Below are positions 50,244 to 56,591 of a stretch of DNA of 64,000 nucleotides, in pieces (position 1 is the stretch's first letter; the number at the start of each line of letters is the position of its first letter). This stretch comes from Candidatus Roseilinea sp. (GTDB lineage: Bacteria; Chloroflexota; Anaerolineae; J036; Brachytrichaceae): assembly GCA_026003755.1 (NCBI GenBank), contig BPHV01000002.1, positions 310,001-374,000 on the forward strand, read 5' to 3'. A program made the translations under genes and the position numbers. The notes below the pieces were generated by a model. That model saw nothing but the letters and a program-made list of their open reading frames with translations, had not been told where the DNA came from and did no database searches.

Positions 50244-50747
50244 TCAGGGCATCGGCGTGACGGTCGGCTGCGAATTCGGCGTAGGAGAATCCGTTGGCAG
50301 AGGGATGAGCGTCGGTATAGGCGTGTCTGTAGGCAGAGGGGTATCGGTCGGCGGCGCAAGCGTGGGCGTGGGCGTGGCCGTGGGAGTGTGAGTCGGCGTA
50401 GCGGTGGGCGTTTCAGTCGGCGTGGCGGTGGGCGTTTCGGTCGGCAGCGGCGTGTGAGTTGGTGTAGGCAAGACGCGCGTCGGCGACGGCAAACTGATCG
50501 GCGTGATCGTTGGCGGGGCGAACGGGGTGGGCAAGTCGGCCAACGTGGGCGTGGCCGGGCGCGTCTCGGCAAGCGGCCGAGCCGGCGATGCAGTTGGCGC
50601 GGCGAGCAAATCCTGATCCGGCCGCTGCAGAATGACCAGCGCGGCAAAGCCAAGCAAATAGCACGGGATGGTCAGGAGAATCATGCCGATGAGCACACTG
50701 TAAGCAACGCGATTTCGGCGCGGCGCGTTGTCGGGGACATCCTGCAT
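50244..50747 (-). CDS. Small membrane protein with Thr-Pro-rich tail
   Basis: About 167 residues. A short basic N-terminus (PRRNRVAYS), one membrane helix (VLIGMILLTIPCYLLGFAALVIL), then about 115 residues of Thr, Pro, Ala and Ser, with repeated T-P-T and E-T-P-T-A-T units. It would sit with its tail outside. No domain is present, so the role is unknown; such tails may span the cell wall. A GTG at 50756 is an alternative start. TACAAT at 50757-50762 on the same strand is 9 bases before the ATG, which would give a leaderless message. It is convergent with the LCP gene and divergent from ileS. Confidence 0.7.
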   Translation of the reverse strand: MQDVPDNAPRRNRVAYSVLIGMILLTIPCYLLGFAALVILQRPDQDLLAAPTASPARPLAETRPATPTLADLPTPFAPPTITPISLPSPTRVLPTPTHTPLPTETPTATPTETPTATPTHTPTATPTPTLAPPTDTPLPTDTPIPTLIPLPTDSPTPNSQPTVTPMP

Positions 50748-50797
50748 GCCGTTCACATTGTAGTATCATCGCGCGATGACGTTATTGTAGATTGACG

Positions 50798-53700
50798 ATG
50801 TTTCAACCAGTTGCGACCCAGACTGACTTCCCGGCTCAAGAACGCGACGTGCTCGCGTTTTGGGCGCGCACCCGGGCCTTCGACCGCCTGCGCGAGTTGC
50901 GCGCCGACGCCGACAAACGCTTCTCGTTCATAGACGGCCCGATCACCGCCAACAACCCCATGGGCGTGCATCACGCGTGGGGCCGCACCTACAAGGACTT
51001 GTGGCAGCGCTACTTTGCCATGAAGGGCTACAACCAGCGCTGGCAAAATGGCTTCGACTGCCAAGGGCTGTGGGTCGAGGTCAACGTCGAGAAAGACATG
51101 GGCTTCAAGTCGAAGCGGGACATTGAGGCTTTCGGCATGGAGCGCTTCATCGGCCTGTGCAAGCAGCGCGTGCTGAACAGCGCTGCCATGCAGACCGAGC
51201 AATCCATCCGGCTAGGCTACTGGATGGACTGGAACGACCCGGAAGAGCTGCGCTGGCTCGCCCAGAAGATCGTCGAAGACCCACAACAAGTCATCACCCT
51301 CGAGCGCAACGGACAACCGATCACCGGCACCGTCGAGCAAATCGTCGGCCGTCTTGGCCTGCCGGAATTGGGCGGCTCGTACTTCACCTTCAGCGACGAG
51401 AACAACTATCAGATTTGGAGCTTCCTGAAGAAGTGCCACGAAAGGGGCTGGATTTATCGCGGCGAAGATGTGATCCCTTGGTGCCCACGTTGTGCGACCG
51501 GCATCAGCCAGCACGAGATTGACACCGAAGGCTACAGGGATCGCGAGGATCCCGCCATGACCGTGCGCATGAAGCTCAAGTCGTTCGACGTAAACCAGGC
51601 GACCTGGGTTAGCCCGCAGGCGCGCGCCAAGTTCGACCACGCGTCGGGCAAGTTCCTTCTGGCCTGGACCACAACGCCCTGGACGCTGCCGGCCAACATC
51701 ATGGCCTCGGTCGGCCCCAAGCTGACCTACGCCATCGTCCGGCAATTGCACAAAGACGGCGAACTGGCCGTGTACTTCCTCAGCAAGAAGACGCTGCACA
51801 TCCTGCGCGGCGAATACGAGGTGCTGGGGGAGATTCAGGGCGAACACATGGCCGGCTGGACATACGAAGGGCTATTCGATGATTTGCCGGCGTTCGTTGA
51901 CGCGCACAAGCGCTGGCAGGATAAGCACGACGGCCGCCCCTTCGCGCACGTCGTCATCACCTGGGACGGCGTGGGCGAGGACGAAGGCACCGGCATCGTG
52001 CACAATGCGCCCGGCGCCGGCCCGGAGGACTACCAACTCGGCAAGCAGCACAGTATGCCGAAGATCGCCCCGCTGAACGAGGACGGCCGCTTCGTGGACG
52101 GCTTCGGCGAACTGACCGGCAAGCACGCCCACGATGTGCCCGACCTGATCGAAGCGCTGCTCAAGGCCAAAGGCTACTTCTATCGGCGCGACAAGTACGT
52201 GCACCGCTACGCCCACTGTTGGCGCTGCGGCACGCCGCTGGTCTATCGCATGGTAGACGAGTGGTACATCAGCATGGACGAGCTGCGCCACGAAATGATG
52301 GCCGTGTCGGAGCAGATTCGTTGGATTCCCTCGTTCGGCAAAGAGCGCGAACTGGACTGGTTGCGCAACATGCACGACTGGATGATCAGCAAGAAGCGCT
52401 ACTGGGGGCTCGCGCTGCCGATCTGGGAATACCCCGACGGCACATTTGAGGTCATCGGCAGCTATGAAGAGCTGAAGGCCCGCGCCGTCGAGGGCTGGGA
52501 GCAATTCGACGGCCACACACCGCATCGGCCGCACATTGACAAGGTCAAGATCAAGCACCCCGTCACCGGTCTCATCGGCACACGTGTGCCCGACGTGGGA
52601 AATCCGTGGCTGGACGCCGGCATCGTCGCCTACTCCACCCTGCGCTATCGCACCGACCGAGCGTACTGGCAGCGATGGTTCCCGGCCGACTTCATCACCG
52701 AGAGCTTCCCCGGTCAGTTCCGCAACTGGTTCTACTCGTTGATCGCGATGAGCACTGTGCTGGAAGGGCGCATGCCCACGCGCACCATCCTCGGCTACGC
52801 GACGTTGCTCGACGAAAAGGGCGAGCCAATGCACAAGAGCAAAGGCAATGCCATCGAGTTCAACGAGGCTGCGGATAAGGCCGGCGCCGACGTGATGCGT
52901 TGGCTGTATGCGCGCCAGCGCTACGACGACAACCTGCTGTTCGGCTACAACGCGCTCAACGAGGTCCGTCGCCAAGTCATCATCCCGCTGTGGAACGTCT
53001 ACGCTTTCTTCGTCACCTACGCCAACGCCGACGGATGGTCGCCCAAGTCGCCGGAGGCGCAGGAACAGCCGACGACGCCCAGCGCCCTGGATCAGTGGGT
53101 GCTGGCTCGGTTGGCCGAGACGACGAACGTGGTCAACGCCGCGCTCGACGCCTACGACGCACGGCCGGCAGTCCTGGCCATCGAGAAGTTTGTTGACGAT
53201 CTATCGAACTGGTACGTCCGGCGCTCGCGCGAGCGCTTCTGGGGCAGCCAAATGACGGCCGACAAAGAAGCCGCCTACGCCACGCTCTACGAGGTGCTCA
53301 CGACGCTCGCTCGGCTTATCGCCCCTATCGTCCCCTTCATTAGCGAAGCAATCTGGCAGAACCTGCGGAACGCAGATTTCCGCATCCAGAACCCGGAGGA
53401 CAACCGCCGACTACGCGATTCACAACGCGCGTTCTCCGTGCATCACCAGCCCTATCCACAGCCGCGCGAGTTGACGGAAGAAGAACGCACTCTACTGCGC
53501 CAAGTAGCGCTGGCCCGCACGGTGGTCGCGCTTGGCCACAGCACCCGCGCCCAATCAAAGGTGAAGTTGCGCCAGCCGCTGCGCAAGGCGATGATCGTCG
53601 CCGACGACGAAGTGCGCCGGGCGATCCTTGCCCACTACGACGTGATTGCCGATGAGCTGAACGTCAAGGCGCTCGAGTTTGTCGAGCGCGAAGTCGAACT

Positions 53701-54229
53701 GGTCAGCTACCGCGTGTTGCCAGACCTGAAGAAACTGGGCAAAAAGCTGGGGGCCGACTTGCTGAAGGTGCGCGCGGGGCTGAGCCAGCTCGATCCATCG
53801 TCGGTTGTCGCTGCGGTCCAGGCCGGCCAACCCGTCGCTGTGAATGGCGTCTCACTCCAGCCGGATGAGATCATCGTGCAAGCCATCCCACGCGAGGGGT
53901 TGATCGTCGCCGGCGAGAACGGCATCGTCGTCGGCCTCGATACCACGCTTGACGAGGCGTTGATCGCCGAAGGGTTGGCGCGCGAGGTGGTGCGCCGCGT
54001 CAACGACTTGCGCAAGGCAGCCGGGCTGAACGTCTCCGACCGCATCCATCTGGCCTACAACGCCAGCGACCGCCTACGCCGCGCGATCGCCCACTTCGCC
54101 GATTACATCGCCGGCGAAACGCTGAGCGTCGCGCTGAGCGAGGGGCAACTGGCAGACGGCATCAGCGCAAGCGATGCCTTCGACGGCGAACAGCTCACGA
54201 TCTCGATCAAAAAGGCGTCCGATGTGTGA
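50798..54229 (+). CDS. ileS: Isoleucyl-tRNA synthetase with variant signatures
   Basis: Charges tRNA-Ile with isoleucine. 1143 residues; class I core with editing domain and anticodon domain. The HIGH region is replaced by NPMGVHHAWG (53-62), and the KMSKS loop by PMHKSKGN, M678 to N684. Zinc-type cysteines occur in WCPRCATGISQHE and HCWRCGTPLVYR. WTTTPWTLPANIMASVG is the editing-domain start. The frame opens with TTG at 50792; the ATG at 50798 is preferred. Both signature changes align with the core and the rest is intact, so I think this is a real IleRS of a divergent clade. The next genes, a KAP/LspA-like fusion and lspA, follow closely; ileS-lspA is a common neighbourhood. Confidence 0.93.
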   Translation: MFQPVATQTDFPAQERDVLAFWARTRAFDRLRELRADADKRFSFIDGPITANNPMGVHHAWGRTYKDLWQRYFAMKGYNQRWQNGFDCQGLWVEVNVEKDMGFKSKRDIEAFGMERFIGLCKQRVLNSAAMQTEQSIRLGYWMDWNDPEELRWLAQKIVEDPQQVITLERNGQPITGTVEQIVGRLGLPELGGSYFTFSDENNYQIWSFLKKCHERGWIYRGEDVIPWCPRCATGISQHEIDTEGYRDREDPAMTVRMKLKSFDVNQATWVSPQARAKFDHASGKFLLAWTTTPWTLPANIMASVGPKLTYAIVRQLHKDGELAVYFLSKKTLHILRGEYEVLGEIQGEHMAGWTYEGLFDDLPAFVDAHKRWQDKHDGRPFAHVVITWDGVGEDEGTGIVHNAPGAGPEDYQLGKQHSMPKIAPLNEDGRFVDGFGELTGKHAHDVPDLIEALLKAKGYFYRRDKYVHRYAHCWRCGTPLVYRMVDEWYISMDELRHEMMAVSEQIRWIPSFGKERELDWLRNMHDWMISKKRYWGLALPIWEYPDGTFEVIGSYEELKARAVEGWEQFDGHTPHRPHIDKVKIKHPVTGLIGTRVPDVGNPWLDAGIVAYSTLRYRTDRAYWQRWFPADFITESFPGQFRNWFYSLIAMSTVLEGRMPTRTILGYATLLDEKGEPMHKSKGNAIEFNEAADKAGADVMRWLYARQRYDDNLLFGYNALNEVRRQVIIPLWNVYAFFVTYANADGWSPKSPEAQEQPTTPSALDQWVLARLAETTNVVNAALDAYDARPAVLAIEKFVDDLSNWYVRRSRERFWGSQMTADKEAAYATLYEVLTTLARLIAPIVPFISEAIWQNLRNADFRIQNPEDNRRLRDSQRAFSVHHQPYPQPRELTEEERTLLRQVALARTVVALGHSTRAQSKVKLRQPLRKAMIVADDEVRRAILAHYDVIADELNVKALEFVEREVELVSYRVLPDLKKLGKKLGADLLKVRAGLSQLDPSSVVAAVQAGQPVAVNGVSLQPDEIIVQAIPREGLIVAGENGIVVGLDTTLDEALIAEGLAREVVRRVNDLRKAAGLNVSDRIHLAYNASDRLRRAIAHFADYIAGETLSVALSEGQLADGISASDAFDGEQLTISIKKASDV

Positions 54230-54274
54230 ATCAGCTAGCACGTCCAAGATGCCCGGCGCTTCAAACGGAGACAC

Positions 54275-56053
54275 ATGATTCAAGACACGTTACAACGACC
54301 TCCAGGGCAGATGTCGCCGGCCATCGCCACACTGCCCGGCATCGAACTGAGCGTCGGGCAACACCAGGCGCTCGACGACGTGTTGGCCGCGCTGGACCGG
54401 CCGGGGATGCGCCGCGCGATTGGCCTATTCGGCCCCCGCGGCAGCGGCAAAACCACGCTGCTGAGCGCCCTGTGCAGGGGTGGCGCATCCGCCCGGCGCA
54501 CGCCTCAGCATCGCAAGGTCGTATGCGCGCTGATCAACGCCGCCAATCTGCCGACCGACCTGGCCCCCTGGCAACGCCTGATCTTTGGCGTGCTCGACAA
54601 GTTGGCGCAACAGCCTGGCGCGCCCGCGACCGTCCAGGAACTCCGCGCCGAACTGGAAGAGGTGGTGCAACACGAGGCGAACGACGACGCAAGCGCCACG
54701 CTCGCCGCCGCTGCATTTGCCCACCATATGCGCGCTGCCTTTGCCGGCATGATCCACAGCGCCATCACGCTCTCGAACGCGACGTTCGTCGTGGCCATTG
54801 ATCACCTCGACAAAGCGACGCCGGAAAGCATCGCCCAACTCCTGGAGGCCTCGAAATACTTCCTCAACGCCCAGCATTGTGCCACCTTGATCTGCGCCGA
54901 CCAATCTGAGCTTATCCAAAAGCTCGGCGATGCGGCGATGTTGCGCGCCTGGCTCACCGACCAAGTCGAATTGCGCGCGAGCGCGCATCCCACGCATCGC
55001 GAAGCAGCCATCCTCCCCCCAACCCAGCCAGCGCGGACGCCGCCTCGCCCGATCGCTTCAGACATCCCGCCGCTTTGCGTTCAACTCTTCACCGACATCC
55101 TGGGGAGCGACCGCTATGCGATCGAGCGCGCCGGCGAACACTGGCGCGCAGCCATGCGCGCGCTGGCCAAGCGCAACGCCGCGGGCTACCACACCGACGT
55201 ATCCGGCGCGATGATCGCCAAGTTGTGCGCGCTGCGCGTGCTTTCACCGGCACTGTTCGATGCCATCCGCCTGGATGCGCCGGCGCTGACCACGCTCGAA
55301 CGGCGCGCGCGCCTACAGGATTCGGCCCGCAGCTACCCCGACGAATGGACCGAGGCGCTGGAGCGCGACCCGCGCCTGGCCCGGCTATTCGCCGCTGCGC
55401 CGAGCTTCATCGGCGTTGACGCGCGCCACCTGGCAACTGCGCTGCGTCTGGTGCATACCGGCGACGAAGCGACGGTTCGGCAAACAAAACCACTCACAGC
55501 CCAACCGGTAGGAGGCGGCGTTAAGCTCGTCGCGCTGAACCGGCCTCGTCCGCATGGACGGCCCGCAGCTCCAGCATCGTCTGCGCCGATCTGGACGCCG
55601 ATTACGGTGGCGGCCGGCGTGTTCATCATGGATCGCTTGATCAAGCTGGCCGTCCAATCCGTCGAGGGGCTCCGCAGCGGCGCGTCGGTGCCGGGTGGGC
55701 TGATCGGGCTACAGCCCCCCCCGGAAGCCAACCTGGTGGAGATCGGTTTAACTATCGGCGTCACGCTGGTCGGCCTAGCGTTGTGCATCCTGATCGCGGC
55801 CTTCGCGGGCCGGCGCATTGACGGCAGGCGCGCCAAAGCCTACGGGCTGATCGCCGGCGGGCTGACCACCAATCTGTTCGACCGCGCCACGTATGGCGCA
55901 GCGATGAACTACCTGCACATCGCCAACTTGCCGGTGTTTAACCTGGCCCACCTCGCGCTGTTGGTCGGCGCAGCGATGCTGGCCGTCGCCATCCTGACCC
56001 ACCCGTCCCATGCCGTGCGTAGTCACCACGCAGGCGATCTCGACCATGAGTGA
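54275..56053 (+). CDS. KAP-type P-loop NTPase fused to an LspA-like membrane domain
   Basis: A 592-residue fusion. The N-terminal part (about 30-400) is a KAP/AAA-type NTPase: Walker A GPRGSGKT (53-60), Walker B FVVAIDHLDK (171-180, D176 and D179), a sensor-like TLICADQSEL (204-213). Residues about 438-575 are four likely helices with the signal peptidase II pattern: MDRLIK (452-457), NLFDRATYG (533-541) and FNLAHLALLVG (555-565). In LspA the two catalytic Asps lie in NxxDR and FNxAD. Here the first (D536) is kept but the second is His559, and the NxGAAF motif is absent. So the protease domain is probably inactive. Its stop overlaps the intact lspA by 8 bp. Confidence 0.75.
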   Translation: MIQDTLQRPPGQMSPAIATLPGIELSVGQHQALDDVLAALDRPGMRRAIGLFGPRGSGKTTLLSALCRGGASARRTPQHRKVVCALINAANLPTDLAPWQRLIFGVLDKLAQQPGAPATVQELRAELEEVVQHEANDDASATLAAAAFAHHMRAAFAGMIHSAITLSNATFVVAIDHLDKATPESIAQLLEASKYFLNAQHCATLICADQSELIQKLGDAAMLRAWLTDQVELRASAHPTHREAAILPPTQPARTPPRPIASDIPPLCVQLFTDILGSDRYAIERAGEHWRAAMRALAKRNAAGYHTDVSGAMIAKLCALRVLSPALFDAIRLDAPALTTLERRARLQDSARSYPDEWTEALERDPRLARLFAAAPSFIGVDARHLATALRLVHTGDEATVRQTKPLTAQPVGGGVKLVALNRPRPHGRPAAPASSAPIWTPITVAAGVFIMDRLIKLAVQSVEGLRSGASVPGGLIGLQPPPEANLVEIGLTIGVTLVGLALCILIAAFAGRRIDGRRAKAYGLIAGGLTTNLFDRATYGAAMNYLHIANLPVFNLAHLALLVGAAMLAVAILTHPSHAVRSHHAGDLDHE

Positions 56054-56591
56054 GGAAGCGCGCGTCGCCGAATCCAACCCACCGGCGGAAAGCCCGGGCC
56101 GACCAGTGGCGGCCCTCTTCTTCCAGCGCTACGGTTTGCTATTGCTGGTGACGGGCATCGCCCTGGCTGCGGACATCATCACCAAACGCATCGTCGAGGC
56201 GCAGATTCCGCTCTACACGTCCATCCCGGTCATTGGCCCCTATCTGAGCTGGACGCACACTCAGAACACAGGCGCGGCGTTCAGCCTGTTCCAAAACGGC
56301 GGCGCGTTCTTCATCGCCGTCGCACTGATCGTGTCAGCAGTGATCCTGTATTACGCGCCTCGGCTTCCGGCCGGCGATTGGCTCTCGCGGGTCGCGCTGG
56401 GTCTACAGCTCGGCGGCGCCGTAGGCAACTTGCTCGATCGCCTGCGCCAGGGCTACGTCACCGACTTCATCCACTTCCAGATCCCCGAAATCGGCTTCGA
56501 CTGGCCGGTGTTCAACATCGCCGACAGCGCCATCGTCGTGGGCGTGATTGTGTTGATTGCGGCCAGCTTCCTGCGCGGCAACAAAGCGTAA
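56046..56591 (+). CDS. lspA: Lipoprotein signal peptidase (signal peptidase II)
   Basis: Cleaves lipid-modified signal peptides. 181 residues with four membrane helices. Motifs: D43 in AADIITKR, N74 in HTQNTGAAFSLF, NLLDR with catalytic D131, and FNIAD with catalytic D160. The N-terminal about 25 residues before helix 1 are acidic and Pro-rich, longer than usual. The ATG at 56046 lies inside the end of the KAP/LspA-like gene, suggesting coupled translation; a longer frame to 56010 would overlap further. The lipoproteins in this window (BMP, PotD, AapJ-like) are likely substrates. Confidence 0.95.
   Translation: MSEEARVAESNPPAESPGRPVAALFFQRYGLLLLVTGIALAADIITKRIVEAQIPLYTSIPVIGPYLSWTHTQNTGAAFSLFQNGGAFFIAVALIVSAVILYYAPRLPAGDWLSRVALGLQLGGAVGNLLDRLRQGYVTDFIHFQIPEIGFDWPVFNIADSAIVVGVIVLIAASFLRGNKA

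Follow-up and report, generated by a model that had tools for sequence, protein, structure and literature searches.

The ileS–lspA locus

In the genome of Candidatus Roseilinea sp. (Chloroflexota), a gene lies between ileS and lspA whose product resembles signal peptidase II (LspA) in its membrane domain. LspA is usually viewed as a single, stand-alone enzyme, and the step of lipoprotein maturation at which it acts is the target of globomycin and myxovirescin. The neighbourhood of ileS and lspA is itself common in bacteria. An earlier note, made from the letters of the window alone (the window being the whole stretch of 64,000 nucleotides that was analysed), described the intervening gene as a KAP-type ATPase fused to a probably inactive LspA domain.

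The fusion gene (54275–56053, + strand), as defined by its open reading frame and by Pfam, encodes a protein of 592 residues in which a KAP/AAA-like P-loop domain is followed by a pseudo-LspA membrane domain. The motif GGAG, read directly 4 nt before the ATG, is a probable ribosome-binding site (54267–54270, +). The gene order ileS–fusion–lspA was described correctly: ileS, the upstream neighbour (50792–54229, +), ends at 54229, and a complete lspA starts at 56046. This lspA (56046–56591, +; ATG at 56046) encodes a canonical signal peptidase II of 181 residues with all motifs intact. The overlap of 8 bp that had been reported between the 3′ end of the fusion gene and the start of lspA is exact (ATGAGTGA; 56046–56053, +); it measures 8 bp in seven of the nine genus members, the window's counted, and 4 bp in the other two.

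Along the protein, Walker A (GPRGSGKT, residues 53–60; 54431–54454, +) is intact in the window, and the Walker B region (FVVAIDHLDK, residues 171–180; 54785–54814, +) falls inside the KAP_NTPase match; both motifs lie exactly where they had been placed. A middle helical region, delimited from the family alignment, spans residues about 265–402 (55067–55480, +), and the LspA-like membrane domain, delimited by Pfam Peptidase_A8 and the family profile, spans residues 440–575 (55592–55999, +).

The genome that contains the window comprises 3.34 Mb in five contigs. On the other side of ileS, and divergent from it, a gene at 50244–50756 (−) encodes a Pro/Thr-rich protein of 170 residues that is probably membrane-anchored; this gene is kept beside ileS in much of family f1, the family of the window's genome.

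Identity of the C-terminal domain

By sequence, the C-terminal part of the fusion protein is assigned as an LspA homologue over the whole membrane domain. Residues 447–574 match Pfam Peptidase_A8 at 39 bits (cut-off 25), and 22 of 25 fusion relatives match the same family at E<0.01. Using phmmer, the window's domain alone retrieved Pseudomonas aeruginosa LspA (5dir) at E 2.5e-4. When a profile of the 25 relatives was compared with the PDB, LspA was the top match (6ryo, E 1.6e-14, positions 443–589), followed by the further LspA matches 9emz and 5dir (the latter at E 1.2e-13), and no non-LspA match fell below E 0.04. The NCBIfam lspA equivalog TIGR00077 gives the fusion 33.9 bits, below the curated cut-off of 73.95; the neighbouring lspA scores 122.8 bits with TIGR00077 and 132 bits with Pfam.

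Structure models add weak support, since their pLDDT is low. A full-length AlphaFold2 model built from a four-sequence alignment reached a pLDDT of 43.9, the middle helical region being the sole confidently modelled part. A model of the C-terminal domain, for which lspA rows had been added to the input alignment, reached 51.5; its top five hits in the PDB are LspA structures without exception, with TM 0.53–0.57, prob 1.00 and E 0.014–0.05, and because LspA rows were in its input this agreement is not independent of the sequence comparison.

Catalytic site and retained pocket

In Staphylococcus aureus LspA the catalytic dyad consists of D118 and D136, and the variants D118N and D136N each have 0% activity; the same study lists 14 conserved LspA residues (Olatunji et al. 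2020, PMC6952399). Residues were counted here in 25 fusions and compared with 41 canonical LspA sequences, all 41 of which have Asp at both dyad positions. The fusions carry Asn at the D118-equivalent position in 21 of 25 cases, with His, Asp, Thr and Ala in one each, and at the D136-equivalent position His is found in 25/25 and Asp in 0/25. In the window, the dyad positions are N545, which replaces the first catalytic Asp (55907–55909, +; by alignment to 5dir), and H559, which replaces the second (55949–55951, +), so that both catalytic Asps of the LspA domain are gone.

The earlier note had placed His559 in the second catalytic position, and the 25 relatives bear this out. It had also taken D536 for the first catalytic Asp; this is wrong, and D536 was rejected as a catalytic residue because alignment to solved LspA puts it at D109 of the NxxDR motif, a conserved Asp outside the dyad. 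The proposed loss of catalysis therefore stands, but through replacement of both Asps and not of just one. Given that both catalytic residues are lost, the fusion is predicted to be unable to cleave prolipoproteins, and the protein is almost certainly a fusion of a dead LspA with a P-loop domain.

Much of the remaining site has been kept. The equivalents of D21 and K25 (S. aureus numbering), D453 and K457 (55631–55645, +), are present in 25/25 and 24/25 fusions, respectively. Within the NxxDR motif, N533 is kept in 16/25, D536 (D109) in 25/25 and R537 (R110) in 20/25, D536-R537 lying at 55880–55885 (+); similarly, the N133-equivalent is kept in 21/25. Mean conservation over 11 aligned LspA-signature positions is 0.83, compared with 0.50 for the domain (permutation p about 1e-5). 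The ten invariant columns of the 25-sequence alignment are M1, W99, F148, Y195, F196, D453, L503, D536, H559 and G565. The NxGAAF loop is missing, as had been claimed: N52 is retained in 1/25 and G54 in 2/25 relatives. Since N52 and G54 have been lost, ordinary prolipoproteins are perhaps not bound in the manner of LspA. A dead LspA copy with a fixed Asp-to-His replacement and a mostly intact polar pocket would represent a natural separation of binding from cutting.

The P-loop domain

The NTPase part of the fusion matches KAP_NTPase at 35.8 bits (cut-off 20), with only residues 158–217 aligned, and AAA_16 at 41 bits (cut-off 32.6) over residues 27–189. KAP_NTPase is matched at E<0.01 by 22 of 25 relatives, and the fusion is the sole KAP match in the window's genome. 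KAP NTPases are typically membrane-bound, and in typical KAP proteins the P-loop domain is interrupted by transmembrane helices. In the fusion protein, strongly hydrophobic stretches occur after residue 440 only, no 19-residue span ahead of this residue having a mean hydropathy over 1.5. As its P-loop domain thus has no hydrophobic segment, the protein is named KAP-like here and not a typical KAP member. The curated model of QatA, the ATPase of the Qat anti-phage system, gives the fusion 26.8 bits, below its cut-off of 600, and PADLOC returned weak matches only, the best of them being QatA.

Walker A is intact in 17/27 family sequences and degenerate in 10/27, the degenerate forms occurring in genera g4, g5 and g7 and in two of the three g3 genomes, which corresponds to four changes on the tree. 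Walker B residues D176 and D179 are nearly invariant across the relatives. Conservation of the Walker residues is 0.77, compared with 0.54 for the domain (p 0.005), a weaker contrast than that for the LspA signature. In genera g2 and g5, the middle helical region is either absent or cannot be aligned.

Because Walker A has degenerated repeatedly, ATP hydrolysis is not a general mechanism in the family and any ATP-driven step is optional. The idea that the NTPase gates or recruits lipoprotein precursors at the expense of ATP is correspondingly weakened, and ATP-driven gating was rejected as a mechanism for the family as a whole. Sorting or sensing of such precursors, which the note also put forward, is a candidate role.

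Distribution and genomic context

It had been suggested that Chloroflexota genomes be searched for the same fusion beside lspA, and it is indeed found there in most genera of family f1. A profile search of 298 genomes of the class recovered the full fusion in 21/21 genomes of family f1 and in 0/277 others. Among 400 phylum-wide genomes, which partly overlap the class sample, the fusion occurs only in the seven family f1 members drawn. Genomes outside the family were matched through their own lspA or NTPase proteins, and the five NTPase matches examined there are all KAP proteins with SUMF-type C-termini.

Within family f1, 27 of 28 genomes (the window's counted) have a match to the fusion, two of these matches being cut by contig ends; the genome with no match, G025, is only 78% complete. 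Full-protein identity is 65–90% in seven of the eight other genus members and 29–44% in the remaining family sequences. Conservation of the full protein through both genus and family argues that the fusion is not a product of chance.

The fusion had ileS upstream in each family genome for which the context was inspected. The order ileS–fusion–lspA is found in genera g1 and g3–g8; in genus g2 the pair ileS–fusion is kept, with lspA located elsewhere. In five class genomes outside family f1 that have an ORF between ileS and lspA (L028, L053, L061, L062 and L063), this ORF is a TraR/DksA-like zinc-finger gene; in family f1, the fusion occupies the same gap. In two further class genomes outside family f1, ileS and lspA abut. 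As the ileS–lspA neighbourhood is common, adjacency of the fusion to lspA is by itself a weak sign of shared function.

Viral contigs, and plasmid and phage records, yielded no relatives of the fusion, and a mobile gene is therefore unlikely. The window's genome encodes two Lgt and one canonical LspA; as a lipoprotein pathway of the usual kind is thus present, the fusion does not stand in for LspA.

In G016, the fusion follows ileS and the sole stand-alone lspA found is on another contig (L111 3361–3885, −); at 85.8 bits it is very divergent, and no other lspA in the tree has so long a branch. It looks as though this copy had taken over from the usual lspA. G026 has a second lspA with intact motifs (L075 1429–1926, +), which adjoins DsbA-like and CcdA-like redox genes.

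Evolution and selection

The fused LspA domains group in a single clade (support 100/99), apart from the lspA of the family (100/100). A tree that forces the fused domain and the family's lspA together is 20.6 log-likelihood units worse, with a p-AU of 0.067. The fused domain may derive from the neighbouring lspA, a placement that is not rejected at this p-AU in a tree with long branches.

Within the genus, dN/dS for the whole fusion gene is 0.21–0.38 (about 0.3). By domain, the NTPase part has the lowest values (0.12–0.24) and the LspA-like part ranges over 0.25–0.68; in near relatives, the whole fusion gene has a dN/dS of 0.28–0.31, lspA of 0.11–0.25 and ileS of about 0.1. The fusion gene is thus faster-evolving than lspA and ileS, yet it is under clear purifying constraint. 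Its retention by selection across the family points to a probable non-cutting role in the membrane.

Unfused, divergent second LspA-like proteins were observed in other Anaerolineae at L065 1121–2065 (+), L066 1271–2023 (+) and L067 1383–2384 (−). Most LspA motifs are missing from them, but the first catalytic position, at a minimum, is still an Asp (e.g. LDYLHIPGLPVADLAD).

Proposed function and alternative explanations

It is tentatively proposed, at somewhat less than an even chance, that the fusion serves lipoprotein maturation as an adaptor or regulator that does not cleave, and that it is expressed in step with LspA. More tentatively still, it may represent a new type of regulator: an Asn/His pseudo-LspA with a cytoplasmic P-loop domain attached would have lipoprotein precursors, signal peptides or LspA itself as its ligands and would govern how lipoproteins mature across a Chloroflexota family. 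In such a mechanism, the dead LspA domain would keep its membrane pocket as a binding site that does not cut, candidate ligands being LspA, a prolipoprotein signal peptide or a lipid. The cytoplasmic P-loop domain would couple an event in this pocket to a partner or oligomer, and ATP binding would tune the coupling in lineages with an intact P-loop, the window's among them, and be dispensable elsewhere. The proposal supposes that a retained pocket would mean retained binding, and that co-expression with LspA would reflect a role in lipoprotein maturation. Since Walker A and the middle region are lost in some genera, the common denominator is therefore a membrane domain with a modified polar pocket together with a P-loop fold, ATP binding being dispensable. 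Counting against an adaptor are the loss of N52 and G54 from the substrate-binding region and the position of lspA in genus g2, where it is not adjacent to the fusion.

The main rival explanation is that the LspA-like domain is a mere membrane anchor for a KAP-type NTPase acting elsewhere, for example in signalling or a stress response, and that its position beside lspA is a relic of the fusion's origin. Such an anchor would suit this protein, in which no strongly hydrophobic segment precedes residue 440, KAP NTPases being typically membrane-bound, and it agrees both with genus g2, which retains the fusion with no adjacent lspA, and with the NTPase domain having the lowest dN/dS. However, D453, K457, D536 and H559 are invariant or nearly so although identity across the domain is only about 30–45%, and such conservation is needless for an anchor; moreover, Walker A itself degenerates in 10/27 sequences. 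The anchor explanation is given a somewhat lower chance than the adaptor.

A lesser rival holds that the N/H pair and the nearby D, K and D residues form a new catalytic or ligand site, for a metal or a lipid, which would make the protein an enzyme or sensor. This is improbable: the His is fixed in 25/25 and the Asn present in 21/25, with no sign of drift, but four members have another residue (H, D, T or A) at the Asn position, and neither the PDB profile nor NCBIfam revealed a relative with other known chemistry.

That the fusion has remained a second, lipoprotein-cleaving LspA is hardly credible, despite the homology and the several signature residues kept, as both catalytic Asps are replaced, a single D-to-N change of either abolishes the activity of S. 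aureus LspA (PMC6952399), and NxG is lost. A functionless, decaying duplicate or an assembly artefact, to which the faster evolution relative to lspA and the fact that some genera lack Walker A or the middle region might be attributed, is just as implausible, as the frame is open in independent genomes (among them G007, a single contig), dN/dS is <1 in every domain and invariant residues are shared across genera.

Comparison with known systems

A literature search on LspA or KAP, in which few subscription journals were covered, found no inactive LspA and no such fusion described, in keeping with the earlier note, which named no such fusion. Similarly, an LspA lineage with a fixed His and usually Asn in place of the dyad was not found in the literature searched. 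Both domain families are known; their combination and the Asn/His LspA lineage seem new as far as found, and such a protein may well already have an automatically generated database entry. Should LspA or its clients prove to be ligands of the fusion, lipoprotein maturation would have an additional layer of control.

Like LspA (PF01252; 5dir, 6ryo, 6ryp), the fusion shows homology across the entire membrane domain and keeps the equivalents of D21, K25 and D109, and mostly those of R110, F132, N133 and A135. Unlike LspA, it has N and H in place of the dyad, lacks the N52/G54 loop and carries an N-terminal P-loop domain. The divergent LspA-like paralogues L065–L067 resemble the fusion in being divergent second copies in the same class, but they are unfused, retain at minimum the Asp of the first catalytic position and form a clade of their own.

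With the KAP NTPases (PF07693), the fusion shares the Walker B region and the helix that follows. It differs from them in having IDHLDK and not VDDLDR as Walker B, in the absence of a hydrophobic segment from its P-loop domain, in the dead LspA at its end and in the loss of Walker A in several genera. Among the NTPase-only matches in the class are the KAP-SUMF proteins of several other Anaerolineae (L099–L103), in which a KAP P-loop domain is joined to a SUMF/formylglycine-type C-terminus. As regards QatA, another protein of the KAP family, the context of the fusion after ileS is fixed family-wide, and it has no matches in phage and plasmid collections.

The iRhoms are inactive relatives of rhomboid proteases. 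Fold and organisms are unrelated to those considered here, and the fusion is without a known client; the comparison is one of working principle only, in that an intramembrane protease fold is kept, the catalytic residues are lost, a cytoplasmic extension is present and clients are possibly bound. Given such binding of LspA or its clients, the fusion would be a bacterial counterpart of the inactive rhomboids.
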